From Solimonas sp. K1W22B-7 (lineage in GTDB: Bacteria; Pseudomonadota; Gammaproteobacteria; Nevskiales; Nevskiaceae), in assembly GCF_003428335.1 (NCBI RefSeq), contig NZ_CP031704.1, positions 434,001 to 498,000 on the forward strand: 64,000 nt of DNA. Reading direction: 5' to 3'. Below are positions 28,187-46,367 of this stretch, piece after piece. Made by a program: the position numbers and the translations under genes. Each line of letters opens with the position of its first letter. Within the stretch, counting starts at the first letter, position 1. The notes below the pieces were generated by a model. That model was not told the origin of the DNA. It saw only the letters and a program-made list of their open reading frames with translations, and ran no database searches.

Positions 28187-28257
28187 GGGGTCGACGAAGA
28201 CCCCTTGAGCACCGCGGTCAACGACGCCCGCTTCCTGTGCAGCACTTTTCAGGGGAG
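28187..28257 (+). promoter_or_regulatory. Leader with two six-base-loop hairpins (probable ANTAR target)
   Basis: Hairpin P1 is GGGGTC-GACGAA-GACCCC (28187-28204), perfect six-bp stem. P2 is GCGGTC-AACGAC-GCCCGC (28214-28231), one mismatch. Both loops have six bases with G at position 4; P2 also has A at position 1, the known ANTAR preference. No terminator follows. Instead CTTCCTG (28231-28237) can pair with CAGGGG (28250-28255), which is the ribosome-binding site of the first gene, so control here would act on translation. The pairing overlaps P2 by one base and is inference. Confidence 0.65.
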
Positions 28258-28263: not shown

Positions 28264-30018
28264 ATGTTGTTGATCGCACACGGCAAAACCGTTCCGGCCC
28301 AGGCGCCGGGCCGTGGCCCGCTGGCGATCCGTTTCGGCGCATCGATCCGGTGCATCGCTCTCGCCGCGGTCATCGTGCTGCCGGCCCGGGCCGCCGAATC
28401 CCCCGCGAACCTTGCCGCCGCGGTGCTCGAGCTGGAACGCCAGGCGCCGGCCGCCGACGCGCGCCAGCTCACGCTCTATATCGGCAACCGCAGCGAGGGC
28501 AGCCTGCTGCGCGAGGTGGTGGTGATGGTCGACGGCCGCGCCGCCGCGCGCCATCGCTACAGCGACCGCGAAGCCCGCGCCCTGCGTGCCGGCCTGCACC
28601 CGCTGGTCATTGCGCCGCTGGACGAGGGCAGTCACCGGCTGCGCGTGGAGTTCGTCGCGCGCGCCGAGGATGCGCAGCCGGGCGATGGGCGCCAGCACGC
28701 CCAGGTCGACCAGGACTACTTGAAGACCGCCGCCGCCGGCCGCGTCGAGCTGGTGATGGACAAGCAGGGCCTGCGCGGCAAGTACGGCATTCAATGGCAG
28801 GACTGGGCCAGGCCGGCGCCGGCTCTGGAAGACCCGCGCCTGCGTGCCGCCGACTACTACCTGCGCAGCGGCCAGCCGCTGGCCGCCGCGCTGCTGCTGG
28901 AGCGCCTGCGCGGCGAGGGCCAGCCGCTGCCGGCCGCCTTCGACCGCCGCATGGCCGACAGCCTGGCTGCACTGGACCTGGCGGCGCCCTCCGCGCTGGC
29001 CGGCGCCTCGCCGGTGCTGGAGCGCTACGGCCGCAGCGTCGCCGCCCTGCAGCAGGGCGATGCGCAGGCCGCGGCGCAGCTCGAGGCGATCGGTGCGGCC
29101 GAGGCGCAGGACGGCGAGACGCTGATGCTGCGCGACTACGCCAACCTCGAGCTGGGCTACCAGCTGCTGCGCCAGGGCGAAGGCGAGCGCGCCAAGCCGG
29201 TGCTGGCCCGCGTCCGCAGCCCCGGCCCCTGTTCCAACGCCGCCCTGCTGGGCTTCGGCTGGGCCTTCCTGGTGCCCAAGGCCGGTGCTGGTGCCAGTGC
29301 CGGCGACGGCAGCATGTTCAGCGCGCAGGCGCCGCTGTGGCCGGCCGGCCCGGAGGACGCGGCGCGCCTGCGGCGCAACCTGCCGTTCCGCTACCTGCAC
29401 TCGGTGGCGGTGGCCGGCGAGCGCAAGCTCGACCTGCAGCGCGCGCTGATTCCCTGGGTGGAGCTGCTGGGACGCGACGCCACCGACCCGGCGGTGCAGG
29501 AGGGCATGCTGGCGGTGCCCTATGCGCTGGCGCACCTGGGCGCGCACGAGCAGTCGCAGCAGTACAGCCGCCGCGCCGTCGACCAGCTGGAGCGTGCGCG
29601 CGCGGAGCTGGACGCCGCCATGCGCCACGTCTCCGGCGGCGAGCTGCTGGCGCTGCTGCAGCAGCGCATGACCGACGAAGGCGACGGCTGGCGCCGCGAA
29701 CTGGCCGACCTGCCGTATGCCGATGCCACCGCCTATCTCAAGCCGCTGATGCAGGACCCGGCTTTCCTCGCCGCGCTGTCCGCGCAGCAGCGCCTCGCCC
29801 AGATCGACCAGGCCGCGGCGCGGCGGGAAGACGCCGCCGGCGTGGCGGCGCTGCGCCAGCGCATCGCCGCGGCCGCGCAGGCGCAGGGCACGGAACTGCA
29901 GGACCTGGCGCTGGCGCGGTTGCGCGCGCAGCGCCAGCACACGCTGGCCTATCTCGCCGAGGCGCGCCTGGCGCTCGCCCGCGTGCATGACCGGCCGCTG
30001 GAAGGAGAGCCCTCGTGA
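28264..30018 (+). CDS. Large exported helical protein, first gene of the ExbBD operon
   Basis: The 584-residue protein has a signal segment (SIRCIALAAVIVLPARAAE, about residues 28-46), then a beta-domain of about 130 residues (LTLYIGNRSEG, VVMVDGRAAARHRYS, VEFVARAED) and a long helical region with TPR-like pairs (DYYLRSGQPLAAALLLERLRGEG). AGGGGAG is eight bases before the ATG. I know no named family. Similar proteins head operons with TPR, ExbB, ExbD and AgmX-like genes in other proteobacteria. It probably acts in the periplasm as part of the complex driven by the downstream motor. Confidence 0.7.
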   Translation: MLLIAHGKTVPAQAPGRGPLAIRFGASIRCIALAAVIVLPARAAESPANLAAAVLELERQAPAADARQLTLYIGNRSEGSLLREVVVMVDGRAAARHRYSDREARALRAGLHPLVIAPLDEGSHRLRVEFVARAEDAQPGDGRQHAQVDQDYLKTAAAGRVELVMDKQGLRGKYGIQWQDWARPAPALEDPRLRAADYYLRSGQPLAAALLLERLRGEGQPLPAAFDRRMADSLAALDLAAPSALAGASPVLERYGRSVAALQQGDAQAAAQLEAIGAAEAQDGETLMLRDYANLELGYQLLRQGEGERAKPVLARVRSPGPCSNAALLGFGWAFLVPKAGAGASAGDGSMFSAQAPLWPAGPEDAARLRRNLPFRYLHSVAVAGERKLDLQRALIPWVELLGRDATDPAVQEGMLAVPYALAHLGAHEQSQQYSRRAVDQLERARAELDAAMRHVSGGELLALLQQRMTDEGDGWRRELADLPYADATAYLKPLMQDPAFLAALSAQQRLAQIDQAAARREDAAGVAALRQRIAAAAQAQGTELQDLALARLRAQRQHTLAYLAEARLALARVHDRPLEGEPS

Positions 30019-32837
30019 TCCGCGCCGCTGCTGCCCTGGGCTTGTTGCTGGCCGGCGCCTCCGCGCTGGCCGCCGACGCGGTTTCCACCGTCGGCTCCGT
30101 CACCGAGAACAACGGCCTGTCGAAGAACGGCTGGCTGCTGGTGCGCACCCCCAGCATCCTGCGCGTGACCGGCTCGGAGCAGGTCACGCCGGACCTGCGC
30201 CTCGCGCTGGAGCAGTACGACCGCCTGCAGGAACTGCCGGACGTGGATCCGGCGATCCGCGCCGAGGCGCTGCGCCGCTCCGCCGACCTGCGCATCCGCA
30301 TCGCCGAGGACAGCGGCTCGCTGGATCCGGCGGAGTTGCGCAAGGCGGTGCAGGCCTACCAGAAGCTGATGGCCGAGCAGCCCGCCTACGTGCGCGCCGA
30401 CCGCGTGCTCTACCAGATGGCGCACGCCAGCGAACTGCTCGGCGACGAGGCCCTGTCCATCGCCAGCCTGAGCCTGCTGGGGCAGAAGTATCCGCAGTCG
30501 ATCCGCCGTGCCGATGCGCAGTTCCGCGCCGCCGAGCTGCTCTATCGCGACCGCCGCTACGCCGCCGCCGAGGAGCAGTACCGCCAGGTGGTGGCGCTGG
30601 GCGACAAGACGCCGCTGTTCGAGCCGGCGCAGTACAAGTACGCCTGGTCGCTGCTGCAGCAGTCCAGGCATGAGCAGGCGCTGCCGGTATTCATCGCGGT
30701 GCTGGAGCGCGAGCTGCCGCCGGGCGAGCTGAGCGATCCCAGGGCGGCGATCGCCGCGGTGCGCAGCGGCCGTGCCGAGCTGGCCGGCGATGCGCTGCGC
30801 GGCATCGGCCTGTCGCTGGCGGCGCTGGGCGGCGGTGCCGCGCTCAACCGCCAGTTCGCGCAGTCCGGCGAGCCGCGCTTCGCCGCCCTGCTGCACACGG
30901 CGCTGGGCGAGCAGCTGCTGCAGAAGCGCCGCTACACCGACGCCGCGGCCAGCTACCTCGCCTTCATCGAGCGCCATCCGCGCCATGCGCTGGCGCCCGG
31001 CTTCCAGCGCCAGGCCATCGCCGCCTACGAGCGCGGCGGCTTTACCGAGCAGTTGCTGGCGGCCAAGGAAACCTATGTGCGCGACTACGCGCCGGGCAGC
31101 AGCTACTGGGCCGCGGCGGCGGCGCCGGCCGAGGTGCAGGCGCAGGTGCGCAAGGACATCGAGGAACTTGGCCGCCATTACCAGGCCAGTGCCCAGCGCG
31201 CCGCGGCAGGGCCGGTGAGGCAGGCGCAGTTCCTCAAGGCGGCCGGCTGGTACCAGCGCTGGCTGGAGCTGTACCCCAAGGATGCGCAGGCTTCCGCCAT
31301 CCACCTGCTGCAGGCCGATGCGCTGCTCGATGGCGGCCGGCCCGACGAGGCGGCACGGCAATACGCGCGCGTCGCCTACGACTACCCGGCGCATGCGCGC
31401 AGCGCCGAGGCGGCGTATGCGGCGGTGCAGGCCTGGCAGCAGGCGGCGGCCGTGCCGGCGGCGCGCAGCGAGGCCCTGCGCCAGTCGGTGGCCGCCGGCC
31501 TCAAGCTGTCCGACCGCTACCCGCAGCATCCGCAGCGCGCCACCGTGCTGGCGCGCGCGGCAGGGGATCTCTACGAACTGGGCGATCACGCCCAGGCGCA
31601 GCTGCAGGCGCAGCGCGTGCTCGACGGCTCGCCGCAGCTGCCGCCGGAACTGGCGCGCAGCGTCCTGGGCATCGTTGCCGACGCACGCTATGCGCAGCAG
31701 CAGTACGACGCGGCCGAAGCGGCCTATGCCGCGCTGCTGCAGCGCATCCCGGCCGGCGATGCCGCGAGGCAAACCACGGTCGAGCAGCTCGCCGCCTCGA
31801 TCTATCGCCAGGCCGAGGCCGCGCGCGCCGCCGGTGACCTGCGCACCGCCGCCAGCGCCTTCCAGCGCGTCGGCCGCGCCGCCCCGGAGGCCGGCATCCG
31901 CGCCACCGCCGATTACGACGCCGCGGCCGCGCTGATGGCGCTGCAGGACTGGCCGCAGGCGCAGGCCGCGCTGGAATCCTTCCGCGCACGCTATCCGCAG
32001 CAGGCGCTGCTGCCGGACGTGGATCGCAAGCTGGCGCTGGCCTACCAGAAGGGTGGCCGCCCGGCGCAGGCCGCCGACGCCTTCGCGCGCATCGCCGCGC
32101 GCAGCGACGAAACCCCGTCACTGCGCCGCGATGCCGCCTGGCTCGCCGCCGAACTCTACGGCGAGGCGCGCATGCCGCCGGCCAGCCAGCGCGCCTACGA
32201 GGACTACCTGTCGCGCTATCCGCAGCCGCTGGAACAGGCGCAGCTGGCGCGCCGCCGCCTGGCCGACTACGCCCGCGATGCCGACCCGGCGCGCTACGCC
32301 CGCTGGCTCGGCGAACTGGTGGACGCCGATGCCCGTGGCGCTGGCGCGCGCACCCCGCAGACGCGCCTGCTCGCGGCGCAGGCCAGCCTGGAGCTGGGCC
32401 GCATGGAAGCCGCCAAGGCCCGCGAACTGGCGCTGCGCCTGCCGGTGGAAAAGACCCTGCCGACGCGCAAGGCCGCCACCGAGCGCGCCATCGCCGGGCT
32501 CAACCGCGCTGCCGGCTATGGCTTCGCCGAGGTCACCACCGCCGCCACCTACGACCTGGGCGCCGTCTACCGCGACTTCGGCCGCGCGCTGCTGGTGTCC
32601 GAACGTCCGCGCGAGCTGCGCGGCGAGGCGCTGGAGGAATACGAGCTGCTGCTCGAGGAGCAGGCCTATCCCTTCGAGGAGAAGGCGATCCAGGCGCACG
32701 AGCTGAACCTGCAGCGCTTGCGCCAGGGCCTGTGGAACGAATCGATTCGCCGCAGTACCTGGGCGCTGGCGGAACTGGCGCCGGGCAAGTACGGCAAGCA
32801 GGACCAGAGGGAGACGACCTATGAAGCGCTGCGCTGA
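30015..32837 (+). CDS. Large exported TPR protein
   Basis: The product has 940 residues. After a signal peptide (to about residue 20, ALAADA) nearly the whole length is tetratricopeptide or Sel1-like helical pairs (AAEEQYRQVVALGDKTPLFEPAQYKYAWSLL is one such unit at about 180), the pattern of YbgF/BamD-type and GltE-type scaffold proteins. It starts at a GTG overlapping the previous stop (GTGA) and its end overlaps the next gene by 17 bases. It is probably the periplasmic scaffold of the envelope complex encoded here. Confidence 0.8.
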   Translation: MIRAAAALGLLLAGASALAADAVSTVGSVTENNGLSKNGWLLVRTPSILRVTGSEQVTPDLRLALEQYDRLQELPDVDPAIRAEALRRSADLRIRIAEDSGSLDPAELRKAVQAYQKLMAEQPAYVRADRVLYQMAHASELLGDEALSIASLSLLGQKYPQSIRRADAQFRAAELLYRDRRYAAAEEQYRQVVALGDKTPLFEPAQYKYAWSLLQQSRHEQALPVFIAVLERELPPGELSDPRAAIAAVRSGRAELAGDALRGIGLSLAALGGGAALNRQFAQSGEPRFAALLHTALGEQLLQKRRYTDAAASYLAFIERHPRHALAPGFQRQAIAAYERGGFTEQLLAAKETYVRDYAPGSSYWAAAAAPAEVQAQVRKDIEELGRHYQASAQRAAAGPVRQAQFLKAAGWYQRWLELYPKDAQASAIHLLQADALLDGGRPDEAARQYARVAYDYPAHARSAEAAYAAVQAWQQAAAVPAARSEALRQSVAAGLKLSDRYPQHPQRATVLARAAGDLYELGDHAQAQLQAQRVLDGSPQLPPELARSVLGIVADARYAQQQYDAAEAAYAALLQRIPAGDAARQTTVEQLAASIYRQAEAARAAGDLRTAASAFQRVGRAAPEAGIRATADYDAAAALMALQDWPQAQAALESFRARYPQQALLPDVDRKLALAYQKGGRPAQAADAFARIAARSDETPSLRRDAAWLAAELYGEARMPPASQRAYEDYLSRYPQPLEQAQLARRRLADYARDADPARYARWLGELVDADARGAGARTPQTRLLAAQASLELGRMEAAKARELALRLPVEKTLPTRKAATERAIAGLNRAAGYGFAEVTTAATYDLGAVYRDFGRALLVSERPRELRGEALEEYELLLEEQAYPFEEKAIQAHELNLQRLRQGLWNESIRRSTWALAELAPGKYGKQDQRETTYEALR

Positions 32838-33459
32838 ACTTTGCGCATCGGCGATGCTGGCATGGATGCTGGCCGCCTGCGCCGGCGGTCCGCCGCCGCG
32901 CCCGATGCCCACCGCCGCACCTGCCGCCAGCCAGCCGCGGCCGCCGCCGGCACCCACCAGCGGCAGCGCCGAACAGCGCTACCAGGAAGCGCTGGCGCTG
33001 CTGAAGAACGGCCAGCGCCCGCCGGCGCAGGCGCTGCTGCTGACGCTGACGCGCGAGTACCCGGAGCTGTCGGGTCCCTGGACCACGCTGGGCATCACCC
33101 AGGCACAGGCGAAGCAGCGCGACGCGGCCATCGCCAGTTTCGCGCGCGCGGTCGCGGCCAATCCGCGCAACGCCGTGGCGCACAACTGGCTCGGCAGCCT
33201 GTATCGCGAGACCGGCAATTTCGGTGCCGCCGAGCAGGCCTATCGCAAGGCCCTGGCGGCGCAGCCCGACTATGCCGCCGCGCACCTGAACCTGGCGATC
33301 CTCTACGACGTGTCGCTGCGCCGGCCGCAGCAGGCGCTGGCGTACTACCGCAGCTACCAGCAGTACCAGGGCGGCGACAAGCTGATCGTCAGCGCCTGGA
33401 TCAAGGAACTGGAAGCCGGCGCGCCGGCGCCGGTCAGCGTCGCCGGGGTGCAGCCATGA
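32821..33459 (+). CDS. TPR lipoprotein
   Basis: The 212-residue protein has a lipobox MLAACAGG (cysteine about residue 20), a proline-rich spacer, then three to four TPR units (ALALLKNGQRPPAQALLLTLTREYPE, AVAHNWLGSLYRETGNFGAAEQ). The start is set by GGGAG 8 bases upstream, inside the preceding gene. As an outer-membrane-anchored TPR protein it is the likely contact between the motor complex and the outer membrane. Confidence 0.8.
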   Translation: MKRCAELCASAMLAWMLAACAGGPPPRPMPTAAPAASQPRPPPAPTSGSAEQRYQEALALLKNGQRPPAQALLLTLTREYPELSGPWTTLGITQAQAKQRDAAIASFARAVAANPRNAVAHNWLGSLYRETGNFGAAEQAYRKALAAQPDYAAAHLNLAILYDVSLRRPQQALAYYRSYQQYQGGDKLIVSAWIKELEAGAPAPVSVAGVQP

Positions 33460-33734
33460 GACGTCTGCTGCTGTCGCTGTGCCTGCTGTCCGGCGTTGCA
33501 GCCGCGGAAGCTCCGGCTGCGGAGTCCGGCACCACCATCGTCGGCGAGCAGGAATCCTCGGTCGGCCTGTTCCTGACGCCCTGGCAGGACGAGCGCGCCA
33601 GCGACCTCGATCGCCCGCCTTCGCGCCTGGCGCCGGCGACGCCGTCGCTGGACGCGACCGACTTCGGCCGCAGCGCGGCCGCCTACGAAACCTTGCTGGC
33701 CTATCGACGCGAGCAGTTGCAGCGCGTGCACTGA
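33456..33734 (+). CDS. Small exported protein of the ExbBD operon
   Basis: The 92-residue protein has a signal peptide (RRLLLSLCLLSGVAAAEAP) and a short acidic body with SSVGLFLTPWQDERASDLDRPPS in the middle. It starts by ATGA overlap. I do not recognise it; its fixed place between the TPR lipoprotein and ExbB suggests an accessory part of the complex. Confidence 0.7.
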   Translation: MRRLLLSLCLLSGVAAAEAPAAESGTTIVGEQESSVGLFLTPWQDERASDLDRPPSRLAPATPSLDATDFGRSAAAYETLLAYRREQLQRVH

Positions 33735-33756
33735 TTGATTGCAGACGGAGTACATT

Positions 33757-34398
33757 ATGGAAAACCTCGCACCCCTGGCCCGCTTCTTCCACGGTGGCGG
33801 CGTCTTCATGTATCCCATCGCATTGACCCTGGGCCTGGCCCTCGCGGTAGCGATCGAACGATTTTTCTTCCTGATGCGCTGGAAGCGCGACAACAAGCGT
33901 CTCTGGTCGGAGGTCTCGCCGCTGCTGGCGCAGGGCGATCTTGCCGGCGCCGAACTGCTCACCGCCAGCTCCGAGACCGCGGTGGCCAGGATCCTCGCCA
34001 ACGGCCTGGCGCAGACGCGCATCGACAGCCGCCGCAGCGAACTGGAGATCGCCACCGAGGAAGGCCTGATGGAAGTGCTGCCGGCCATCGAGCGGCGCAC
34101 GCACTACCTGGCCACCTTCTCCAACGTGGCCACCCTGCTGGGCCTGCTCGGCACCGTGTTGGGCCTGATCGGCGCCTTCGCCGCGCTGGGCGCGGCCGAT
34201 GCCTCGCAGAAGGCCGACCTGCTGTCGGCGGGCATTTCCGAGGCGATGAACTGCACCGCCTTCGGCCTGATGGTGGCGATCCCCTCGCTGCTGCTGCACT
34301 CCTGGCTGCAGAGCCGCACCGGCGAACTGGTCGACAGCCTGGAGTCGGTCTGCTCGCGCTTCGTCAGCAGTATCTGCAACCCGGCACGGGCGCGCTGA
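33757..34398 (+). CDS. ExbB/TolQ/MotA-family proton channel
   Basis: The 213-residue protein has the ExbB build: one N-terminal helix (about 15-38), a cytoplasmic loop of about 90 residues, and two long C-terminal helices with NVATLLGLLGTVLGLIGAF and GISEAMNCTAFGLMVAIPSLL. With ExbD it forms the proton-driven stator that powers a TonB-like partner across the periplasm. Two exbD genes and a TonB-like gene follow directly. I do not give it a symbol since this is a paralogous system, not the siderophore exbB. Confidence 0.92.
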   Translation: MENLAPLARFFHGGGVFMYPIALTLGLALAVAIERFFFLMRWKRDNKRLWSEVSPLLAQGDLAGAELLTASSETAVARILANGLAQTRIDSRRSELEIATEEGLMEVLPAIERRTHYLATFSNVATLLGLLGTVLGLIGAFAALGAADASQKADLLSAGISEAMNCTAFGLMVAIPSLLLHSWLQSRTGELVDSLESVCSRFVSSICNPARAR

Positions 34399-34405
34399 AC
34401 GGAAC

Positions 34406-34960
34406 ATGGCCATGCACTCCTGGTCCGCACTCGAAGACGAGCCGCCCCGCGCCAGCCCGCGCCGCGAGCGGCGGCAGCGGCGCTTGCTGCGCTCGGGCGA
34501 GCAGGAAGAGCTGAACCTGGTGTCGATGATCGACGTGTTCGCCGTGCTGGTGTTCTTCCTGCTGGTCAGTTCCTCGGTCGCCGCCACGCGCCTCAAGGTC
34601 TTCGGTCTGGATCTGCCGGCGCCGGGCGCCGCCGTGGCGACGCAGGACCTGCCGCCGCCGGTGGTGCGCCTGCTGCCGGATGGTCTGCAGGTGGAGGCGG
34701 CGCCGGCCAGGACCAGGCGCCTGCCGCGTACGGCACAGGGCCATGACCTCAACGCGCTGTCCGCACTGCTGGTGCAGGCCAAGCGGGCCGCACCGACGCA
34801 GCAGCAGGCCACGTTGCTGGTGGACGCCGATGTCGCCTACGACGATGTCGTGCAGGTGATGGAGACGCTGCGCCAGGCGCCGGTATCGGCGCGCCTGCAG
34901 GGATTGCCCGCCGAATTGTTTCCGCAGATCGCCATCGGCGATGTGGAAGGCCGCTCGTGA
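34406..34960 (+). CDS. ExbD/TolR-family protein, copy 1
   Basis: The 184-residue protein has a basic cytoplasmic N-terminus (RRERRQRRLLR), a single helix with the essential aspartate in LNLVSMIDVFAVLVFFLLV, and a periplasmic domain. The helix is nearly the same as in the next gene, so the two arose by duplication, while the periplasmic domains differ. Two ExbD types usually form a heterodimer inside the ExbB pentamer. Confidence 0.9.
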   Translation: MAMHSWSALEDEPPRASPRRERRQRRLLRSGEQEELNLVSMIDVFAVLVFFLLVSSSVAATRLKVFGLDLPAPGAAVATQDLPPPVVRLLPDGLQVEAAPARTRRLPRTAQGHDLNALSALLVQAKRAAPTQQQATLLVDADVAYDDVVQVMETLRQAPVSARLQGLPAELFPQIAIGDVEGRS

Positions 34961-35433
34961 ACGCGCGCCAGCGCCAGCGACGACAGGGCCGCGAGCTGCG
35001 CGCCCGCTCGCGCCGGGCCGGCATCAACCTGGTGTCGATGATCGACGTGTTCGCGGTGCTGGTGTTCTTCCTGCTGGTCAATGCCCTGGTGGTGCAGGTG
35101 ATCCCGACGCCGCCGGCGCTGCAGTTGCCGGCCGCGGCGATCGCGCCCGAGCCGCGGCCCGGCATCGCGATCACGGTCGGCACCGAAGAGGTGCGCCTGG
35201 GTGAGCGCGTGGTGCAGAGCACCGCCCAGCTCCTGCGCGGCGACAGCAAGGCCCTGCGTGCCGCGCTGGCACAGCTGCCGATGGCCAATGACAAGGATCG
35301 TGGCGAGATCAACATCCTCGCCGACAAGCGCGTGTCCTACCGCGCGCTGCGCGAGGTGATGAACGCCTGCAGCGACAGCCGCTATGCACAGGTTTCGCTG
35401 GCGGTGGCAGACAAGCCCGGTGGTGGTGCGTGA
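34957..35433 (+). CDS. ExbD/TolR-family protein, copy 2
   Basis: The 158-residue protein has the same helix, INLVSMIDVFAVLVFFLLV, as copy 1, followed by a typical ExbD periplasmic fold (VTVGTEEVRLGERVV, INILADKRVSYRALREVM). It starts at a GTG overlapping the previous stop. Having two different ExbD subunits is characteristic of Agl/Glt-type and some TonB2-type systems. Confidence 0.9.
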   Translation: MNARQRQRRQGRELRARSRRAGINLVSMIDVFAVLVFFLLVNALVVQVIPTPPALQLPAAAIAPEPRPGIAITVGTEEVRLGERVVQSTAQLLRGDSKALRAALAQLPMANDKDRGEINILADKRVSYRALREVMNACSDSRYAQVSLAVADKPGGGA

Positions 35434-36353
35434 GCACCGCGACAGTGCCGCGCCTCGGCGACCGATGGGGTGTCGTCGCCGAATCCGACCGGCGCTTCCA
35501 GCGCTGGATGGCGCTGAGCGTCAGCCTGGTGCTGGCCGCGATGATCGCCCTGCAGTTCTGGCAACAGGTCGAACCCGACCCGCAGCCCGAGCCCATCCGC
35601 GTGACCCTGCTGCCTCCGCCACCACCGCCTGCACCGAAAGTGGAGCGCGCCGCGGTGGAACCGCCCGCTCCCAAGCCGGCGCCGAAGCCCGCACCGAAAC
35701 CGGTTGAGCGTGCCAGGCCGGCACCGGCACCGGCACCGGCACCGTCGGCGCGCGAGATCGCGGCGCGCTCGGGGTTGATGTCGATGCGCAACCAGCTGTC
35801 GTCGATGCGGGACGCCGCACCGACCGCCGGCCCGCAGACCCTGCTGCGCGAGTCCGCGGTGTCCTCCAGTAATCGCCGCAGCGGCGAGTCGCTGGCGGCC
35901 ACCGCGAGCAGCGGCAGCAGCGGCATCGGACAAGGCTCGCGCAGCGTCACCGCAGTGCAGGGCACGGGCACGCTCGGTGCGCGGCGCACCAGCGAAGTAC
36001 ACAGCGGGCTGGGTGCAGGCCGGGATGAACCCGGCGGCGCCGGCCAGGACGCCGGAGGTTCGCGCTCGCTCAAGGAACTGCAGCTGGCTTTCGACCGCAA
36101 CAAGTCTTCGCTGTTCTCGATCTTCAACCGCGCCGCACGCGAAAGCACCGACCTGGGCTCGGGCAAGATCGTCGTCAGCCTGACCATCGCCCCCGACGGA
36201 TCGGTCACGCGCTGCGAGCTGGTCTCCAGCAGTTTTGCCAACCCCGATCTCGAGACCAAGATCCTGCAGCGCGTGCGCATGCTCAACTTCGGCGCGAAGA
36301 ATGTGCCGGCCTATACCTACGCGAACTATCCGATCAATTTCCTGCCGTCATAG
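35430..36353 (+). CDS. TonB-like protein with AgmX/PglI C-terminal domain
   Basis: The 307-residue protein has one N-terminal membrane helix (about 29-46, ALSVSLVLAAMIALQFW), a proline-alanine-lysine segment (PPPPPAPKVERAAVEPP...), a low-complexity middle, and a C-terminal AgmX/PglI domain (about 215-307: LQLAFDRNKSSLFSIFNRAAR, KIVVSLTIAPDGSVTRCELV). It is the energy transducer moved by the ExbB/ExbD motor. GTG start overlaps the previous stop, so all eight genes are coupled or nearly so. The second sigma-54 promoter lies 27 bases after the stop. Confidence 0.88.
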   Translation: MSTATVPRLGDRWGVVAESDRRFQRWMALSVSLVLAAMIALQFWQQVEPDPQPEPIRVTLLPPPPPPAPKVERAAVEPPAPKPAPKPAPKPVERARPAPAPAPAPSAREIAARSGLMSMRNQLSSMRDAAPTAGPQTLLRESAVSSSNRRSGESLAATASSGSSGIGQGSRSVTAVQGTGTLGARRTSEVHSGLGAGRDEPGGAGQDAGGSRSLKELQLAFDRNKSSLFSIFNRAARESTDLGSGKIVVSLTIAPDGSVTRCELVSSSFANPDLETKILQRVRMLNFGAKNVPAYTYANYPINFLPS

Positions 36354-36379: not shown

Positions 36380-36395
36380 TGGCATGGCGTTTGCT
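36380..36395 (+). promoter_or_regulatory. Sigma-54 promoter of the DUF3034-globin operon
   Basis: TGGCATGGCGTTTGCT with GG at 36381-36382 and GC at 36393-36394, ten bases apart. The start of transcription should be near 36405, giving a leader of about 170 bases. Confidence 0.9.
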
Positions 36396-36408: not shown

Positions 36409-36518
36409 GTGAGCCGAGAAGGCTCGCAAACAGGGAGCGGTCAGAGTCGAGCGCCCCGAACGGACAGAGACGTCCACGTTACCGGCATTGCAGCCGGCCA
36501 ACGTGGACGTTTTTTTTT
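36409..36518 (+). promoter_or_regulatory. ANTAR-type antiterminator and intrinsic terminator in the DUF3034 leader
   Basis: After a first hairpin (36409-36427, five-base loop GAGAA) come P1 GCGGTC-AGAGTC-GAGCGC (36437-36454, one G-G mismatch) and P2 GGAC-AGAGAC-GTCC (36462-36475). Both six-base loops have A at position 1 and G at position 4, the defining ANTAR motif. The terminator stem ACGTCCACGTT (36470-36480) pairs perfectly with AACGTGGACGT (36500-36510) and is followed by nine T. P2 shares 36470-36475 with the terminator, so the two cannot form together: binding of an ANTAR protein to P1-P2 would permit read-through into the DUF3034 gene. Confidence 0.85.
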
Positions 36519-36573: not shown

Positions 36574-37611
36574 ATGAATGGGTCTCAAGGGAGCAAGCTT
36601 CGCCTCTGGTCTTGCGCGGCAGCGATCGGCGCGGCGACGGTATTGCACAGCGGAGTGGCGGCAGCGGGTTACAACGATGGCAAGGTGTTCCTCACCGGCG
36701 GCGTGTTCACGGTCGACGGCGCGGGCGGCGGTGGTGCGGTCCCCTGGGCGACCATCACGGGTTATGAAACCCGCGACGGCATCAACGGCGGCGTGGCGTA
36801 CACCTACGCCAACCTGCCGGCGCTGCAACTCAATGTGTTCGGCGGCGCCGTGGGTTTCTACGATCGGTTCGAGCTGTCCTATGCCACGCATCACCTGTCG
36901 CTGAACCTGTCCAACCTGGACACGGTGGCACTGGTGGCGGAAGCGGCGGGCCTGGATATCGGTACCGATCCCTGGAATTCCACGCTGAAGATGGACGTGT
37001 ACGGTGCCAAGCTGCGCCTGTTCGGCGACGCGGTCTACACCTCGGACAGCTGGATTCCGCAGGTGGCCCTCGGCGGCCTGTACAAGGAAAACAAGTCCAA
37101 GGAACTGATCACCACGCTGGGCGCCAGCAAGTCCAAGGACTGGGAAGCGTACATCGCGGCGACCAAGGTGTTCTTCCCGCTCAGCACGCTGGTCAACGTC
37201 ACTGCGCGTTACACCTCCGCCAATGAAATCGGCCTGACCGGCTTCGGCGAATGCACCGGCAGCGACTGCACCAACGACAAGGAACTTCGTTGGGAACTCT
37301 CCATCGCGCACCTGCTGAGCAAGAACACCGCGGTCGGCTACGAGTACCAGCAGCACGGCGACAATCTCGACGGCAAGAGCGTCACCATCGCCGGTCTGCC
37401 GCTCACCGGCCTGACCAACCTGCTGGGTGGCGTGGTCGGCGGTGTCGAGAGTGCGCTGACGCAGGAGAAGGAAGGCGACTGGCAGGACTTCTTCTTTGCC
37501 TACGCGCCGAACAAGAACCTTTCGTTCGTGATCGCCTACCTGATGCTCGGCAACATCTCGGTGGCCCCGGACCAGAACGGTTTCTACATGTCCATGCACG
37601 CAACGTTCTGA
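36574..37611 (+). CDS. DUF3034 outer-membrane beta-barrel protein
   Basis: The 345-residue protein has a signal peptide (cut near VAAAG, residue 32) and the DUF3034 start GKVFLTGGVFTVDGAGGGG-type glycine run with VPWATITGYETRD. The body is a series of amphipathic strands with aromatic ends (VAYTYANLPALQLNVFGG, FDRFELSYATHHLS-like) and it ends in phenylalanine, as barrels do. AAGGAG is seven bases before the ATG. The function of DUF3034 is unknown; the fold suggests an outer-membrane channel. An exported globin follows 25 bases on. Confidence 0.8.
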   Translation: MNGSQGSKLRLWSCAAAIGAATVLHSGVAAAGYNDGKVFLTGGVFTVDGAGGGGAVPWATITGYETRDGINGGVAYTYANLPALQLNVFGGAVGFYDRFELSYATHHLSLNLSNLDTVALVAEAAGLDIGTDPWNSTLKMDVYGAKLRLFGDAVYTSDSWIPQVALGGLYKENKSKELITTLGASKSKDWEAYIAATKVFFPLSTLVNVTARYTSANEIGLTGFGECTGSDCTNDKELRWELSIAHLLSKNTAVGYEYQQHGDNLDGKSVTIAGLPLTGLTNLLGGVVGGVESALTQEKEGDWQDFFFAYAPNKNLSFVIAYLMLGNISVAPDQNGFYMSMHATF

Positions 37612-37636: not shown

Positions 37637-38107
37637 ATGAAGAGCTTCAAGTTTGGCCTCGGCCTCATCACCGGAGCGGCGCTGATGGTCGCTGCCGTCC
37701 AGCCCGCCTACGCCGGCGAGCAGAAGACCCGTCCCATCCTCGGCATTCCCAAGAGCGCGCTCGACGACTTCGGCGGCGCGGCGGGCGTGCATGCCTGGGT
37801 GGAAAGCCTGTTCTACTACATCATGCTCGACAACCGCATCAGCCACATCTTCCGCGAGTTCGGCAACGTTGAACGCCAGGTGGCGCTCAACACCCAGCTC
37901 GAGCAGATGGTGCTGGGCGGAGCGGTGGAGTACCAGGGTGCCAGCATGAGCGCGGCGCATGCCGATCTCGGCATCACCATGACGCAGTTCAACGCGGTGG
38001 TGGAAGCGGCGTACAACGCCTGCGAGCGCAACCTCGTGCCCTACAAGACCTGCAATCACCTGATCGCGGCGCTGGCGCCGTTCACCCGGGTGATCGTGAC
38101 GAGGTAG
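37637..38107 (+). CDS. Exported group-1 truncated haemoglobin
   Basis: The 156-residue protein has a signal peptide (to PAYA, about residue 26) before a complete truncated-globin domain: FGGAAGVHAWV, tyrosines 60-61 at the B10 region, F72 at the CD1 position, proximal H108 in SAAHADLGIT, and LAPFTRVIV at the end. Truncated haemoglobins bind oxygen or nitric oxide; most are cytoplasmic, so periplasmic export is unusual. GGAG precedes the start. It shares the DUF3034 transcript, ends at a strong terminator and faces an NsrR-type nitric oxide sensor. Confidence 0.82.
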   Translation: MKSFKFGLGLITGAALMVAAVQPAYAGEQKTRPILGIPKSALDDFGGAAGVHAWVESLFYYIMLDNRISHIFREFGNVERQVALNTQLEQMVLGGAVEYQGASMSAAHADLGITMTQFNAVVEAAYNACERNLVPYKTCNHLIAALAPFTRVIVTR

Positions 38108-38221: not shown

Positions 38222-38656
38222 TCAGGCGGCGCGCAGGAGGCGGTGCAGGCGCACCAATGTGGGGCCCTGCACGACATCGGCGAGCGTGTACTTCTTCAGC
38301 TCATCGAGGAAGTTGCGCTCCGCGGCATCCAGTGCGGTCTTGAGCGTGCAGGCGCCGTTGAGCGCGCAGGGGCCGCGTTTGCAGTCGGCCAGGCGGCCGC
38401 TGCCTTCCATGGCCTCGACCACATCGCCGATGCGCAGCTGGTCCATCGGTGTCAGCAGGCGCAGGCCACCGAGACGACCGCTGACGGTCTCGACATAGCC
38501 CAGCTTGCGCAATCCTTGTGCAACCTTGTGGAGATGGTGCGTGGAAACGCGCAGCTGCTCGGAGATGCGCGCGGTGCCGACAGGTTTTCCGTCGGGATTG
38601 CCACCGAGATAAACCAGCAGTCGCAGCGATAAGTCGGTGTAAAGGGAGAGGCGCAC
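38222..38656 (-). CDS. nsrR: NsrR-type Rrf2 regulator (nitric oxide sensor)
   Basis: The 144-residue protein is an Rrf2-family repressor. I start at the GTG 38656 because GGAG lies six bases upstream and the N-terminus then reads MRLSLYTD as in NsrR; the ATG at 38668 lacks a Shine-Dalgarno. With this start, Asp8 and cysteines 92, 97 and 103 (C-X4-C-X5-C) coincide with the known NsrR [4Fe-4S] ligands and spacing. NsrR releases DNA when nitric oxide attacks the cluster. It is convergent with the globin gene and divergent from the ANTAR regulator, 164 bases away. Confidence 0.85.
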   Translation of the reverse strand: MRLSLYTDLSLRLLVYLGGNPDGKPVGTARISEQLRVSTHHLHKVAQGLRKLGYVETVSGRLGGLRLLTPMDQLRIGDVVEAMEGSGRLADCKRGPCALNGACTLKTALDAAERNFLDELKKYTLADVVQGPTLVRLHRLLRAA

Positions 38657-38769
38657 GCCTTTCTCCATGCGGTGAGTACGCGGATTCTAGCCGTAAACGG
38701 CCATGTCAAGGGGGGCGGGGGCATTCTTCTCCATGCCCAGCTGACGAACGTGTCATTTCTCCGGAAAAG

Positions 38770-38785
38770 TGGCATCTGGTTTGCA
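38770..38785 (+). promoter_or_regulatory. Sigma-54 promoter of the ANTAR regulator gene
   Basis: TGGCATCTGGTTTGCA with GG at 38771-38772 and GC at 38783-38784, ten bases apart. Transcription would start near 38796, leaving only a 25-base leader without hairpins, unlike the other four sigma-54 leaders. An inverted repeat TGAC-GAACG-TGTCA lies at about 38742-38755 and might be a factor site. Confidence 0.88.
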
Positions 38786-38820: not shown

Positions 38821-39426
38821 ATGGTTACGGAACACACAAAATTGCGTGTGATGCTGGTCGACGACGACCAGGACCGGCTGGCCTTGCTGGAAAAGGCACT
38901 GGGAGCGGAAGGCCACCAGGTCGTGGCGCGGCTGAATACACATGCCGACCTGTCCGTGGCTGTTGCACTGCACAAGCCGGAAGTGGTTTTCTGCGACGTC
39001 GGCGCCCCCGGGCGCGACATCCTGCAGTCGCTGGGGGAGATGTACCGGGAACATCCCCGGCCGATCATCCTGTGGGCGGAGCAGAGCGACGCCCAGACCA
39101 CGCGGCGTGCACTGGATGCGGGCGTCAGCGCCTTCGTGGTCGACGACCTGGCGCATCGCAAGAACTTCAGTTCGCTGCTGGACCTGGCGATCGCACGCTT
39201 CGAGATGCAGCAGGCCCTGCACCAGGAGCTGGACCGGGCGCGTACCCGCCTGGCGGACCTGCGCGACATTGAAAAAGCCAAGGGCCTGCTGATGAAGCGC
39301 CGCGCGCTGGACGAGGCCTCGGCTTACAACCTGCTGCGCCGCATGGCGATGGATCGCAAGCAGCGCATCGGCGACTTCGCCAGGACGCTGCTGAATGCGG
39401 CGGATGTGTGGAGCGAACTGGGCTGA
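38821..39426 (+). CDS. NasT-like response regulator with ANTAR RNA-binding domain
   Basis: The product has 201 residues. The N-terminal receiver domain (about 8-125) keeps the acidic pair (VDDD) and a central aspartate (FCDVGAPG) but has VSAFVVDDL where the conserved lysine should be, as in NasT, so phosphorylation may not be its switch. The C-terminal ANTAR domain (about 140-195: LRDIEKAKGLLMKRRALDEASAYNLLRRMAMD) binds paired hexaloop RNA hairpins and prevents termination. No NasS-type partner or histidine kinase is nearby. GGAGAAGGA precedes the ATG. Its likely targets are the leaders at 28187, 36437, 40245 and 45147. Confidence 0.9.
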   Translation: MVTEHTKLRVMLVDDDQDRLALLEKALGAEGHQVVARLNTHADLSVAVALHKPEVVFCDVGAPGRDILQSLGEMYREHPRPIILWAEQSDAQTTRRALDAGVSAFVVDDLAHRKNFSSLLDLAIARFEMQQALHQELDRARTRLADLRDIEKAKGLLMKRRALDEASAYNLLRRMAMDRKQRIGDFARTLLNAADVWSELG

Positions 39427-39679: not shown

Positions 39680-39965
39680 GCGGTGAGACTCTGATGGGTT
39701 ATCTCGCCTAAGGGCGAGTCACTTCTCCTTGCTTGTGCAAAGAGAAGTAACCAAGAGAAAGCACACCCTGGATGTGAGCAGCCCCGCTGATGCGGGGCAA
39801 CCTGCGTGGTGGTCGTACTTCGGGGTCGGGCAAACAGGCCGTCCATGGCCTGTATGCCCTCAGCCGGACTTCCTGTCCGGCTGACCCCTGTGCTCGACCC
39901 CCGCGCAGGTGCTCACAAACAGGGGCCCGTAAGTCAAAAGCATTCGCTGCGCTCACCAAGCTATC
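39680..39965. repeat. Long interspersed repeat, copy B
   Basis: This is the second copy of the element at 4999-5285, in the same orientation and with the same chain of inner palindromes (CGCCTAAGGGCG, GTGCAAAG region, CCCCGCTGATGCGGGG, GCCATGGC, AGCCGGACTTCCTGTCCGGCT). The compensating base changes in stems suggest the folded form matters. No reading frame is kept between copies. Confidence 0.85.
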
Positions 39966-40214: not shown

Positions 40215-40230
40215 TGGCATAGCGATTGCT
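40215..40230 (+). promoter_or_regulatory. Sigma-54 promoter of the FMN-binding/PepSY operon
   Basis: TGGCATAGCGATTGCT with GG at 40216-40217 and GC at 40228-40229, ten bases apart. Transcription would start near 40240, just before leader hairpin P1. Confidence 0.9.
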
Positions 40231-40244
40231 ACTTTTATCCCGTG

Positions 40245-40322
40245 GGTGGCGACGAGGCCGCCTGCGAAGACAAGGACAGCGACGTCCACGTAGCCCTGGC
40301 CGGCGACGTGGACGTTTTTTTT
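40245..40322 (+). promoter_or_regulatory. ANTAR-type antiterminator and intrinsic terminator in the FMN operon leader
   Basis: P1 is GGTGGC-GACGAG-GCCGCC (40245-40262, all six pairs with one G-T). P2 is GGAC-AGCGAC-GTCC (40274-40287), loop A1 and G4. The terminator stem ACGTCCACGT (40282-40291) pairs with ACGTGGACGT (40306-40315), followed by eight T. P2 shares 40282-40287 with the terminator, so they exclude each other. The terminator stem is the same sequence as in the DUF3034 leader, although the loop and flanks differ. P1 has G, not A, at loop position 1. Confidence 0.8.
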
Positions 40323-40386: not shown

Positions 40387-40989
40387 ATGACTACATTCGA
40401 CAACCCAGCTGCATGCCCGACCGATGCTGCCTCGATTGGCGGCGCGTCGCGGCGTTCGTTCCTGCGCGGTGCCCTGGCGCTGCTGGCATTGCCCCTGACC
40501 AAGGTTGCGGCAGCCGCCGGCACCTTTGAACTGTTCAAGACCTTCCAGACCCCGGAGGCCTTCCTGGCCGAAGCCTTCGGCGCCACCGTGCCGCCGGCTT
40601 CGACGCTGGACCTGGACGACGCCAGGCAGTCGCAGCTCTCCGGCGTCTACGGCCGCCGCTACCCGCAGGCGCGCCTGCGCTACTGGCGCGCGCCCAACGG
40701 CCGCACCGCCTGGATCTTCGACGACATCGGCAAGGAAGGCTACGTGCCCACCACTTCCGGCTTCGTCGTGCAGAACGGCGCGATCGACTTCGGCCGCGTG
40801 CTGATCTACCGCGAATCGCGTGGCGAGCAGATCGCCGAGCGTTCCTTCCTGCAGCAGCTGGTCGGCGCACGCGCCTCCGGCAACGGCATCGACAAGAAGG
40901 TCGACAACGTTTCCGGTGCCACCTACTCGGTGAAGATGATGCAGCGCATGGCGCGCACCGCGTTGATGCTCGATTCCCTGGCGAGGTGA
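40387..40989 (+). CDS. Tat-exported FMN-binding domain protein
   Basis: The 200-residue protein has a twin-arginine signal (SRRSFLRG, residues 21-28, then a hydrophobic stretch to AAAA at 44) and a C-terminal FMN-binding domain ending in DNVSGATYS, where Thr179 is the predicted site of covalent FMN attachment by ApbE. Such proteins carry electrons outside the cytoplasm. A PepSY membrane protein and apbE follow, which fits. The ATG at 40387 has a weak Shine-Dalgarno. Confidence 0.85.
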   Translation: MTTFDNPAACPTDAASIGGASRRSFLRGALALLALPLTKVAAAAGTFELFKTFQTPEAFLAEAFGATVPPASTLDLDDARQSQLSGVYGRRYPQARLRYWRAPNGRTAWIFDDIGKEGYVPTTSGFVVQNGAIDFGRVLIYRESRGEQIAERSFLQQLVGARASGNGIDKKVDNVSGATYSVKMMQRMARTALMLDSLAR

Positions 40990-40994
40990 CGAAA

Positions 40995-41882
40995 GTGTCC
41001 GAAACCCAGTCCATCGCGGTTGAATCTCCCCTCCCGCATCGCGAGCACGGCGCGCGCTGGCACCGCTGGCGCGAACGGGTGCGGCTGGTGGCGGTGCGTC
41101 CGCACGCCGCGGCGCGCCCCAAGCGCAACCTCAACGTGTTGCTGCGCGAGTGGCACAAGCGCGCCGGCCTGTTCGCCTTCGTGTTCATGATCTGGCTGGG
41201 CTTCAGTGGCTTTCTCATCAATCAGAGCGCGAGCTGGGGTTACGACACCAGGCGCGTCGATTGGGGCTGGGTCATGAGCCTCTATGGCCTGCACCCGGAG
41301 CCGCCGCAGAGCGGCTTCCAGGCCGGCAGTCACTGGCTGGCCGCCACCACCGACTACACCCTGGTCGATGCCCAGCCGCTGGGCACGCCGATCCGCGAGC
41401 CGCGTGGTTTCGTGCTGGCGGGCAGTGCCGAAAAGCCGCTGCTGTTCGTCGCCGCTGCCGAAAGCCTGCTGCTGCTGACGCCGCAGGGCGAGCGCATCGA
41501 CGAGCTGACGCCGCCGATCCTGCCGGTGTCCAACATCCGCCGTATCGGCATGGTCAAGGGGCATCCGGGCAGCATTGCGGTGCAGGACCTCGACGCCTTC
41601 CAGAGCATGGACGAGGGCAACACCTGGACGCCGGTCGCCTCCACCGCCGTGGAATGGTCGGAGCAGAAGGCCCTGCCCGATGCCGAGCGCTCGCGCCTGC
41701 TGCCGTTCTCCAGGCCCAGCGTCTCGATCGAGCACATCCTGGTGGACGCACACAGCGGCCGCCTGTTCGGAAACTGGGGGGCCTGGGTCATCAACTGCGT
41801 CGGTATCGCCGCCATGCTGCTGTCGATCAGCGGCATCTGGATGGTTTACCGCACTTCCTCCGCCCGCCGCCGGAGGCAGTGA
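40995..41882 (+). CDS. PepSY-associated transmembrane protein
   Basis: The 295-residue protein has a long basic cytoplasmic N-terminus (to about residue 40), a helix with WHKRAGLFAFVFMIWLGFSGFLI, a periplasmic domain of about 190 residues and a C-terminal helix (WVINCVGIAAMLLSISGIWMVY). This is the two-helix frame of PepSY_TM proteins, which pass electrons from the cytoplasm to exported flavoproteins. GAGGTGA five bases before the GTG at 40995 sets the start; an earlier GTG at 40986 overlaps the previous stop. Confidence 0.78.
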   Translation: MSETQSIAVESPLPHREHGARWHRWRERVRLVAVRPHAAARPKRNLNVLLREWHKRAGLFAFVFMIWLGFSGFLINQSASWGYDTRRVDWGWVMSLYGLHPEPPQSGFQAGSHWLAATTDYTLVDAQPLGTPIREPRGFVLAGSAEKPLLFVAAAESLLLLTPQGERIDELTPPILPVSNIRRIGMVKGHPGSIAVQDLDAFQSMDEGNTWTPVASTAVEWSEQKALPDAERSRLLPFSRPSVSIEHILVDAHSGRLFGNWGAWVINCVGIAAMLLSISGIWMVYRTSSARRRRQ

Positions 41883-41884
41883 TG

Positions 41885-42153
41885 AGAGCCTATCCGTGCA
41901 TAGGACACACACGCGACGGCGTGCCATTTTCGTGTCCCGCTAACCCTATCGACGCGCGGTGTATCTGACGTACATAAGCGGCGATAGGGAACGCGGGGCG
42001 CGAAAATGGCCCCGTCCCTCCGGGTTGTGCCGGAAATCGCGCCATGCTGCGCCGACCGCTGCTTATTTGGAACCACCAAACCGCGCATCGGCCGACTTGC
42101 CTGGCGCGATTTCTGGCAGCAACGCGTGCGTGTCCTATACACGGATAGGCTCT
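41885..42153. mobile_element. MITE-like nested palindromic element
   Basis: Terminal inverted repeats of about 30 bases (41885-41914, AGAGCCTATCCGTGCATAGG on; 42124-42153) match at all but two positions. Inside are two further inverted pairs: GCCATTTTCG...CTATCG with CGATAGGG...CGAAAATGGC, and GGAAATCGCGCCA with TGGCGCGATTTC. No protein is encoded and no clear target duplication is seen. It sits between the PepSY gene and apbE. The last 130 bases before apbE hold another palindrome, CCGTACTTTAAGTACGG, at about 42189-42205. Confidence 0.65.
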
Positions 42154-42285
42154 GAGCCTGCTGCGCCCGCCGATCCTGCATCTCCGGTGCTCGCCGTACT
42201 TTAAGTACGGCTCCGCTCCTCGCTGCAGCCTCGACGGGCTCGACACGGCCTCTTCACTACCTCCTGGAGCAGTGAGATTTTCAAC

Positions 42286-43302
42286 ATGATGATGTCGCGG
42301 CCGTTGTTGATTCGTGGACTACGGCTGCAGACGCCGTCGATCGTGCGCCGGCGCTTCATCGCCATGGGCACCGAGGTGCTGGTGACGGTGGCCAGCCGTG
42401 GGCGGCGCCACGATGCAGAAGCGGCGATGCTGTCGGTGCGGCGCCTGATCGAGGACTTCGGGCGCGACTGGTGGGCCTGGGGCCCGGGGACGCTGGGCGG
42501 CATCAACCGTCGCCTGGCCGCCGGCGAGGCGGCCAGCATCCCCTTGCCGATGCAGCCGCTGTTCCGCCGCGCCTGGGAGATTCACCAGCAGACCGGCGGC
42601 GCCTACGAGCCCCGCATCGGCGCGCTGGTGCGTCTCTGGGGTTTCGACGACATCGTGCGCATCCGCAGCGCGCCTCCCGCGGCGGCGGACATCGCCGCGG
42701 CACATGCCGCCCTGTGTTCTGCACCTGCTTATGACGGCGGCGGCGACTACGGGCCGGCACCCGGCATCACCTGGGACTTCGGCGGCATCGCCAAGGGCTG
42801 GATCGTCGATGCGGCGCTGGAACTGCTGGCCAGCCATGGCTTCGGCGATGCCACGGTGGATGCCGGCGGCAACCTCGCCACGCGCGGCCGCCGCCATGAA
42901 CGCGCCTGGCGCATCGGCATCCGCGATCCGCGCAGCGCCGCCGAACAGCCCGGCCTGCTCGCCACGCTGGATGCCGGCGATGAGGCAGTCAACACGCACG
43001 GCGACGACCAGCGCTGGTTCGAACACCGGGGCCAGCGCTATTCGCACCTGCTGGATCCGCGCAGCGGCTGGCCGTCGCAGGGCCTGCGCGCCTTGACCGT
43101 GGTGCATCCCGACGGCAGCTGGGCCGAGGCGGCCGGCGCCGCGCTGTTCGTGTCCGGGCCCGCGGGCTGGCAGCCGCTGGCGCGGCGCCTGGGCATCACC
43201 CAGGTTCTCGTCGTGCACGAAGATGGCCGCGTGCAGGCCACCGCCGCGCTCGCGGCGCGGCTGCAGGCCGAGCCGGACGTGCGAATCCAGTGGCTGGATT
43301 AG
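42286..43302 (+). CDS. apbE: FAD:protein FMN transferase
   Basis: The 338-residue protein attaches FMN from FAD to a threonine of exported flavoproteins. ApbE hallmarks are FIAMGTEV near the start, GGAYEPRIGALVRLWGF, DFGGIAKGWIVDAAL, DAGGNLATRG and the magnesium-site region YSHLLDPRSGWPS. There is no plain signal peptide or lipobox, so it may act before export of the folded substrate by Tat. Its predicted substrate is Thr179 of the product of 40387-40989, encoded two genes upstream. Confidence 0.92.
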   Translation: MMMSRPLLIRGLRLQTPSIVRRRFIAMGTEVLVTVASRGRRHDAEAAMLSVRRLIEDFGRDWWAWGPGTLGGINRRLAAGEAASIPLPMQPLFRRAWEIHQQTGGAYEPRIGALVRLWGFDDIVRIRSAPPAAADIAAAHAALCSAPAYDGGGDYGPAPGITWDFGGIAKGWIVDAALELLASHGFGDATVDAGGNLATRGRRHERAWRIGIRDPRSAAEQPGLLATLDAGDEAVNTHGDDQRWFEHRGQRYSHLLDPRSGWPSQGLRALTVVHPDGSWAEAAGAALFVSGPAGWQPLARRLGITQVLVVHEDGRVQATAALAARLQAEPDVRIQWLD

Positions 43303-44868: not shown

Positions 44869-44914
44869 GGGATCCCTTTTAGTGAATAGCCAGAAACGAG
44901 AACCTTCAGCGGAT

Positions 44915-45147: not shown

Positions 45148-45159
45148 GGATTTAAATGA

Positions 45160-46360: not shown

Positions 46361-46367
46361 GGTTCAT

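Follow-up and report, generated by a model that had tools for sequence, protein, structure and literature searches.

A predicted NasT-type ANTAR antiterminator upstream of a DUF3034-globin operon in Solimonas and its sister leaders

The stretch of DNA analysed here (the window) comprises 64,000 nucleotides from Solimonas sp. K1W22B-7. Within it, the leader of a DUF3034-globin operon (leader B; 36433-36518, plus strand) is very probably an antiterminator under the control of the NasT-type ANTAR protein encoded at 38821-39426, a mode of control that it would share with sister leaders (A, C and D). The regulator is most likely a paralogue of NasT that lost NasS and that controls a set of genes for an exported globin, flavin and TonB functions.

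Leader B folds into two hexaloop hairpins, P1 and P2, followed by an intrinsic terminator. P1 (36433-36457) has eight base pairs and the loop AGAGTC (36443-36448), while P2 (36462-36475) is made of four pairs, GGAC (36462-36465) with GTCC (36472-36475), closing the loop AGAGAC (36466-36471). Both six-base loops carry an A at the first position (A1) and a G at the fourth (G4). The terminator (36470-36518) has an 11-bp outer stem (36470-36480 paired to 36500-36510), an inner stem (36482-36486 paired to 36493-36497) and a T run at 36510-36518, the first T of which doubles as the last paired base. The six bases from 36470 to 36475 are common to P2 and to the 5' arm of the terminator, and the two structures exclude each other. 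The original prediction had described these hexaloops, the six-base overlap and the nine-T terminator, all of which sequence and folding bear out. It had also called the arrangement a textbook one; this holds for the presence of the hairpins and their overlap, less so for P1, whose stem is interrupted by a G-G mismatch (36440/36451) and a bulged A at 36436.

The 141-nt region of leader B folds 6.3 standard deviations better than its shuffled versions, none of 200 shuffles being as good. When the RNA is cut at 36480, P1 and P2 both fold, with a probability of at least 0.95 for the nine pairs checked. In the full leader RNA, the terminator structure is favoured by 14.4 kcal/mol (-46.6 versus -32.2). 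Thus, P1 and P2 are predicted to form first and the terminator later, as expected where an antiterminator has to be kept in place by a protein.

Domain searches agree with the operon assigned to this leader in the original prediction, identifying a DUF3034 protein (PF11231, E 6e-76; 36574-37611, plus strand) and a truncated globin (Bac_globin; 37637-38107, plus strand). The DUF3034 protein is mostly beta in a low-confidence model (mean pLDDT 54.5) and is possibly an outer-membrane barrel. The best solved match of the globin is HbN (group 1; 2gkm, E 4.1e-9), an NO-consuming globin, and by eye its N terminus looks like the signal peptide of an exported protein. The sister leaders precede three further operons. 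One (28264-36353, plus strand) encodes an unknown 584-aa protein, two TPR proteins, a 92-aa protein, ExbB, two ExbD and a TonB-like protein whose TonB_C match lies below the Pfam cut-off. Another (40387-43302, plus strand) encodes, by domain search, an FMN_bind protein, a PepSY_TM protein and an ApbE flavin transferase. The last (43420-45073, minus strand) consists of a 52-aa ORF (44915-45073) and a gene for an OmpA-cupredoxin protein (43420-44868). The 52-aa ORF gave no Pfam match and probably encodes one membrane helix, judging by eye; similar small ORFs follow the leader in other Solimonas. Among the matches listed, the set (unknown 584-aa protein, TPR, ExbB, two ExbD, TonB; OmpA-cupredoxin; DUF3034, globin, FMN_bind, PepSY_TM, ApbE; ANTAR) recurs whole or in part in Solimonas, Stenotrophobium, Nevskia, Hydrocarboniphaga, Sinimarinibacterium and Panacagrimonas. 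The ANTAR homologues listed, together with whole-genome searches, assign the window to the genus that includes Solimonas fluminis. A row of five tRNA genes lies farther along the window, at about 45947-46521.

In the protein named as regulator in the original prediction (38821-39426, plus strand), domain search identified REC and ANTAR domains; the protein is of the NasT kind. Among solved structures it comes closest to a "putative antiterminator" (1s8n) and to 6wsh, a response regulator; its ANTAR part matches the nitrate regulatory protein 4akk. By our reading, the receiver is devoid of the usual partner residues. Elsewhere in the genome, the nas locus has an ANTAR protein of its own (C1:1482433) and its own leader. 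One could thus imagine leader B being worked by the nas-locus protein, or by both proteins, all the more as the nas leader is likewise equipped with a sigma-54 motif and a hexaloop (AATGGC). We consider this improbable: the 38821 gene is part of the cluster, its relatives in other genera accompany the same genes, and the nas ANTAR protein is only about 30% identical to the 38821-39426 protein. Some species, as in L066, possess two ANTAR-NasS pairs, the first adjoining this gene set and the second adjoining nas genes. Six nas queries found no match in the window; control of nitrate-assimilation genes, by which a NasT would be recognized, does not appear to be the task of the 38821-39426 protein.

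The immediate surroundings of the regulator gene were compared in loci from named genomes, which had been scanned with aligned ANTAR homologues; all counts are among the matches listed. Of 35 related loci (L053-L086 and L088), 29 have a NasS-like gene immediately after the ANTAR homologue. Those without it are L053, L054, L055, L060, L065 and L080; the sequence of L065 ends 343 bp past the ANTAR gene, and the other ANTAR gene of L065 has NasS. In loci outside Nevskiales by title (L087 and L089-L105), NasS comes directly after ANTAR in 12 of 18; six of these loci (L094-L099) have a NasS match 1.7 kb away from the ANTAR gene, and L106-L112 gave no NasS match. Two of the relatives' NasS-like proteins were scanned and belong to the NMT1_2 family, with no Tat signal. 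No NasS gene lies beside the regulator in the window, in L053-L055 or in L060. The only match to the NasS query in the Solimonas genome itself is taken to be NrtA-like, because it bears a Tat signal and is part of the nas locus. In a tree of 62 proteins (L056 left aside), the window protein falls in a clade of ten (100/100), of which L057, L058, L059, L061 and L062 keep NasS, and inside this clade, in a NasS-less group of four from Solimonas and Stenotrophobium (95/83). L057, titled Verrucomicrobia, groups with Nevskiales loci in the tree and is probably mis-assigned. In Hydrocarboniphaga effusa (NZ_AKGD01000001.1; L077 and L088), the ANTAR-NasS-OmpA-U584 stretch occurs twice, about 203 kb apart and with the same content; the same doubled stretch is seen in genome G312, as a duplication or an assembly effect.

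Divergent from the ANTAR gene lies a gene for an Rrf2/NsrR-like regulator (38222-38668, minus strand), identified by domain search and by alignment with the solved NsrR 5n07. The protein has three Cys and an N-terminal Asp in the same positions as 5n07, where these are presumably the residues holding the Fe-S cluster. Against the NCBIfam NsrR equivalog the protein scores 105.8 bits, below the cut-off of 182. The divergent arrangement is found in the window, in L053-L057 and in L060, and all seven of these loci have a sigma-54 motif 51-61 bp ahead of the start of the ANTAR gene, a feature seen in none of 15 other loci checked. As L056 and L057 keep NasS, the NasS and NsrR-like wirings are not strict alternatives. 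In this genus, the supply of ANTAR protein probably depends on a sigma-54 promoter of the ANTAR gene itself and on the divergently encoded NsrR-like repressor.

Sigma-54-type -24/-12 motifs precede every operon considered so far. They are located at 36380-36395 (TGGCATGGCGTTTGCT) for the DUF3034-globin operon, at 38770-38785, 51 bp ahead of the ANTAR gene, at 40215-40230 for the FMN_bind-PepSY-ApbE operon and at 28160-28175 for the TPR-ExbB-ExbD-TonB operon (all on the plus strand), and at 45159-45174 on the minus strand for the small ORF and OmpA-cupredoxin operon. The pattern TGGCAN6TTGCW has five matches in the window, before leaders A, B, C and D and the ANTAR gene, as compared to 0.2 expected. 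A stricter version, TGGCAYN5TTGCT, occurs 11 times in the 5.37-Mb genome (three times for the reversed control pattern, both strands), with four occurrences in the window within 17 kb and two in the nas region. The window motifs have the GG and GC elements at -24/-12 with the correct spacing and, because they match this established consensus, we read them as sigma-54 promoters; sigma-54 is presumably used at all five. The genome has 13 Sigma54_activat domain matches, nine of which exceed 220 bits and are candidate activators. A sigma-54 motif also precedes a short peptide gene elsewhere (L155; G000:C1:339936-339951, minus strand), whose product has a double-glycine-like leader by eye and is possibly a peptide precursor.

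Ahead of leader D, 33 bp from its sigma-54 motif, lies the palindrome GCACC-N5-GGTGC (45193-45207, minus strand), which we take to be the pattern of an NtrC site. It is exact in two congeners (L034 and L036) and has one mismatch in a third (L035). Within 200 bp of the leader, the palindrome is found with up to one mismatch in 11 of 54 leaders (0.74 expected from single-base shuffles) and with up to two in 33 of 54 (10.2 expected); at 27 other sites with a sigma-54 motif, the corresponding numbers are one and six. Leader C has it with two mismatches, while leaders A and B (three mismatches each) and the ANTAR promoter (four) have no version within two mismatches. Over the window as a whole the pattern is frequent too, with 18 occurrences against 8.8 expected at one mismatch. 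Since A and B are without the palindrome and the pattern is frequent in the window, NtrC is a candidate activator only for leader D and some of the relatives. Another, long palindrome, TTACTGTAGCGCGCTACAGTAA, lies ahead of leader D at about 45236-45262 (minus strand) and was not seen upstream of D in three congeners.

Conservation of the hairpins was assessed in 50 distinct leaders picked by the sigma-54 motif and the P2 core alone, with hairpins chosen regardless of their loop letters; this blind set includes orthologues, the window's leader B being present as copy L129. A hexaloop stem of at least five pairs lies upstream of P2 in 40 of the 50 leaders, the remaining ten having no such hairpin. 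The upstream loops, corresponding to P1, show G4 in 36 of 40 cases and A1 in 27 of 40. As single stems were often equalled by shuffles of their own leader (fractions of 0 to 0.97), the evidence from this set resides in the loop letters and in the set as a whole. Absence of covariation had been stated beforehand as an outcome that would refute the antiterminator. In 28 sequences, four of them the window leaders, P1 shows 53 doubly changed cells as compared to 18.1 in shuffles, with none of 500 shuffles reaching 53, and the number drops to 3-14 when the pairing partner is slid by one to three columns. Possession of a stem was one of the criteria by which P1 was chosen, and this biases the test towards pairing; P1 exceeds the shuffles on four of five measures, the exception being the number of pairs with any double change (5 versus 4.6). 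P2 shows no covariation, being too conserved to vary enough. Among the 37 leaders with a P2 of the GGAY-GTCC type, which were scored for the overlap with the terminator, 25 have all seven bases of the P2 3' arm paired into the stem preceding the T run (0.2 expected by shuffling), five have six paired, one has four and six lack a T run. Loop-to-loop spacing ranges between 19 and 33 nt in 27 leaders from relatives.

A covariance model, R1, was built from 24 leaders at 16 loci, none from the genus of the window. Used on the 5.37-Mb genome, R1 ranked leader C first (29.0 bits, E 0.006) and leader B second (28.1 bits, E 0.010), in a search that scored 150 of 4969 first-look candidates and whose E-values, as the tool itself cautions, are approximate. 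The third and fourth matches (24.1 and 21.4 bits) were rejected as leaders, having no sigma-54 motif in their 3-kb loci and lying in what by eye look like coding stretches. Leader A obtained 18.2 bits (E 1.9), which is no better than chance genome-wide, and leader D was not recovered as such, an overlapping match scoring 12.2 bits; perhaps both score poorly because their P2 is of a GCGG type, which is absent from the R1 seeds. When 58 genomes of the family were searched with R1 at E 0.05, 119 matches were obtained, spread over 40 of the genomes; ANTAR domains were found in 48 of the 58 and DUF3034 in 39. R1 matches occur in 38 of 48 genomes with ANTAR and in two of ten without (Fisher 7e-4), and DUF3034 in 39 of 48 and none of ten, respectively (1.8e-6), counts that are not independent because the genomes share descent. 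An R1 match lies 184-334 bp upstream, on the same strand, of 35 of 42 DUF3034 domain matches (33 genomes), eight of the 24 R1 seeds being themselves DUF3034 leaders. The DUF3034 matches without an R1 leader are those in G004, G017, G330, G008, G327 and G334 and one of two in G335; at least the one in G327 is at a contig end. At 14 DUF3034 loci outside the family, the unit of sigma-54 motif and P2 was found in none, and a globin-like neighbour in seven. As far as these short loci (about 3.7 kb) show, leader control of DUF3034 looks particular to the family.

These results bear on another view of leader B, namely that its hairpin is the ordinary terminator of the upstream TonB operon, which ends at 36353, and that the likeness to P1 and P2 is incidental. 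The terminator is indeed only 117-165 bp past tonB and would stop tonB transcripts too. Yet a sigma-54 motif separates tonB from the hairpins, the R1 match stays before DUF3034 where the upstream gene differs, as it does in several loci (e.g., L059 and L060), and is found before other operons as well, and the covariation of P1 argues against a plain tonB terminator. We reject this view on the grounds of promoter motif, conservation and covariation, and hold it to be very improbable. The reading of leader B as an ANTAR antiterminator, as put forward in the original prediction, is supported.

The original prediction counted four leaders in the window. Four there are, starting at 28187, 36433, 40244 and, on the minus strand, 45147, with a terminator in only two (36433 and 40244). 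Leader C (40244-40322, plus strand) has the P1 loop GACGAG (40251-40256), the P2 loop AGCGAC (40278-40283) and an overlapping terminator with eight T. Leader A (28187-28231, plus strand; P1 loop GACGAA at 28193-28198, P2 loop AACGAC at 28220-28225) and leader D (45107-45147, minus strand; P1 loop ACTGCT, P2 loop GATGAC) lack a T-run terminator, and no exclusion between P2 and a terminator exists there. The eight hexaloops of the four leaders show G4 in 8/8 and A1 in 5/8, in a scan that demanded A or G at loop position 1 and G at position 4. An Rfam search gave no match up to E 5 overlapping the four leaders, which may be counted in favour of an effector other than ANTAR, be it a small molecule or some other RNA-binding protein, as the ligand of the hairpins. 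The dual hexaloops with G4, the loop spacing, the terminator overlap and the co-occurrence with ANTAR genes speak against this reading, which we hold to be very improbable. Rfam does recognize TwoAYGGAY RNA at two places in the window, 39779-39930 and 5156-5226 (both minus strand; 47.6 and 49.9 bits, gathering score 43), the former lying between the ANTAR gene and leader C.

Translational control was considered for 17 terminator-less leaders, a ribosome site being found in 15. In these 15, which include relatives, the ribosome site is in a hairpin adjoining P2 (mean unpaired 0.00-0.49), and forcing P1 and P2 to form increases the unpaired value by at most 0.15 in 12 and by 0.22-0.27 in three. 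Pairing of P2 with the first codons is unusual in leader A, only 1.0% of 294 control starts being as good (0.0% in a second species); the pairing is borderline in a terminator-less leader of S. marina (6.1%) and at chance in the other ten of 13 terminator-less leaders. In a contrast set of 14 leaders with terminators, three gave no start and one of the other 11 reached 5.4%. As the computed effect of P1-P2 is small, an unmasking of the start site at leaders A and D is retained only in the more far-reaching scenario given below.

The arrangement has counterparts in known systems. The nas leaders that NasS-NasT governs in Paracoccus denitrificans (nasA) and in Bradyrhizobium (narK-bjgb-flp-nasC and nos) are alike in having a REC-ANTAR regulator of the NasT kind and leader hairpins, and in the adjoining NasS, found here in relatives (PMC3795266, PMC4724949, PMC6759348). 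In the present case, by contrast, the controlled operons would be other than those of nitrate assimilation, the regulator gene has no NasS neighbour in this genus, the nas locus has an ANTAR protein of its own, and the globin, apparently an exported one, most resembles HbN. A Bradyrhizobium globin gene, bjgb, is listed among NasS-NasT targets (PMC4724949); together with the NsrR-like regulator and the HbN-like globin, this precedent would point to a role in nitrogen-oxide stress. Terminator-less two-hairpin leaders also precede narK-like nitrate transporter genes in Alkanindiges and kin, Polycyclovorans and Acinetobacter (L089-L092, L073, L103 and L104).

The eut leaders of Enterococcus faecalis, controlled by EutV, likewise have P1 first, a P2 overlapping the terminator stem, A1/G4 hexaloops and a short linker, and EutV is phosphorylated by EutW (PMC3369931, PMC8934654). 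In contrast, no kinase gene was seen adjoining 38821-39426, and the receiver, as we read it, lacks the usual partner residues. Target RNAs of actinobacterial ANTAR proteins resemble leaders A and D in being terminator-less and near a start codon; the ANTAR motif there itself covers the ribosome site and binding represses (PMC8164766), whereas here an extra hairpin covers the site and binding might, on faint indications, expose it. PepSY-like flavinylation clusters similarly combine ApbE with PepSY_TM and a secreted FMN-binding protein; they are named with DUF2271/DUF4198 partners and iron, and that text mentions neither DUF3034 nor globin (PMC8238504). A survey of sigma-54 reports ANTAR genes under sigma-54 (PMC12316311).

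In the mechanism that we propose, RNA polymerase would start at the sigma-54 promoter (36380), and P1 and then P2 would emerge in the transcript. Without the protein, the stronger terminator hairpin would overtake P2 and transcription would end before the DUF3034-globin operon. When present and active, the NasT-type protein 38821-39426 would hold P1 and P2, so that the terminator would be blocked and the operon read. The same protein would act in the same way at leader 40244, and probably also at the terminator-less leaders 28187 and 45147 (minus strand). In most relatives, a NasS-like protein would restrain the ANTAR protein, as in nitrate-sensing NasS-NasT pairs; in this genus, NasS has gone from beside the regulator, and protein supply would depend on the sigma-54 promoter and the NsrR-like (nitric-oxide type) repressor. 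The original account had left out the sigma-54 motifs, the NasS neighbour of the relatives, the NsrR-like neighbour and the terminator-less state of two leaders. A more far-reaching scenario, which we offer tentatively and find rather doubtful, is that a duplicated NasS-NasT pair was rewired in Nevskiales to an extracytoplasmic globin/flavin/TonB apparatus and that one branch, NasS-less and placed under sigma-54 and an NsrR-like NO sensor, turned the switch into a reporter of NO rather than nitrate. The one ANTAR protein would then operate by two routes, antitermination at two operons and freeing of a masked start site at the other two; the P2 of leader A is able to pair with the first codons.

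In titles and abstract beginnings of the open PMC literature, we found no report that DUF3034 or the present gene set is controlled by ANTAR, nor any of the NasS-less, NsrR-linked form. The device is known; its targets and wiring appear to be new. Altogether, these data describe what would be a conserved multi-operon ANTAR regulon outside nitrate assimilation, present in tens of species, and they tie the little-studied DUF3034-globin-flavin-TonB set to a regulator of the nitrogen-oxide type. They may also provide a naturally occurring example of a NasT-type protein that lacks its sensor, in which the question of what activates such a protein becomes testable.
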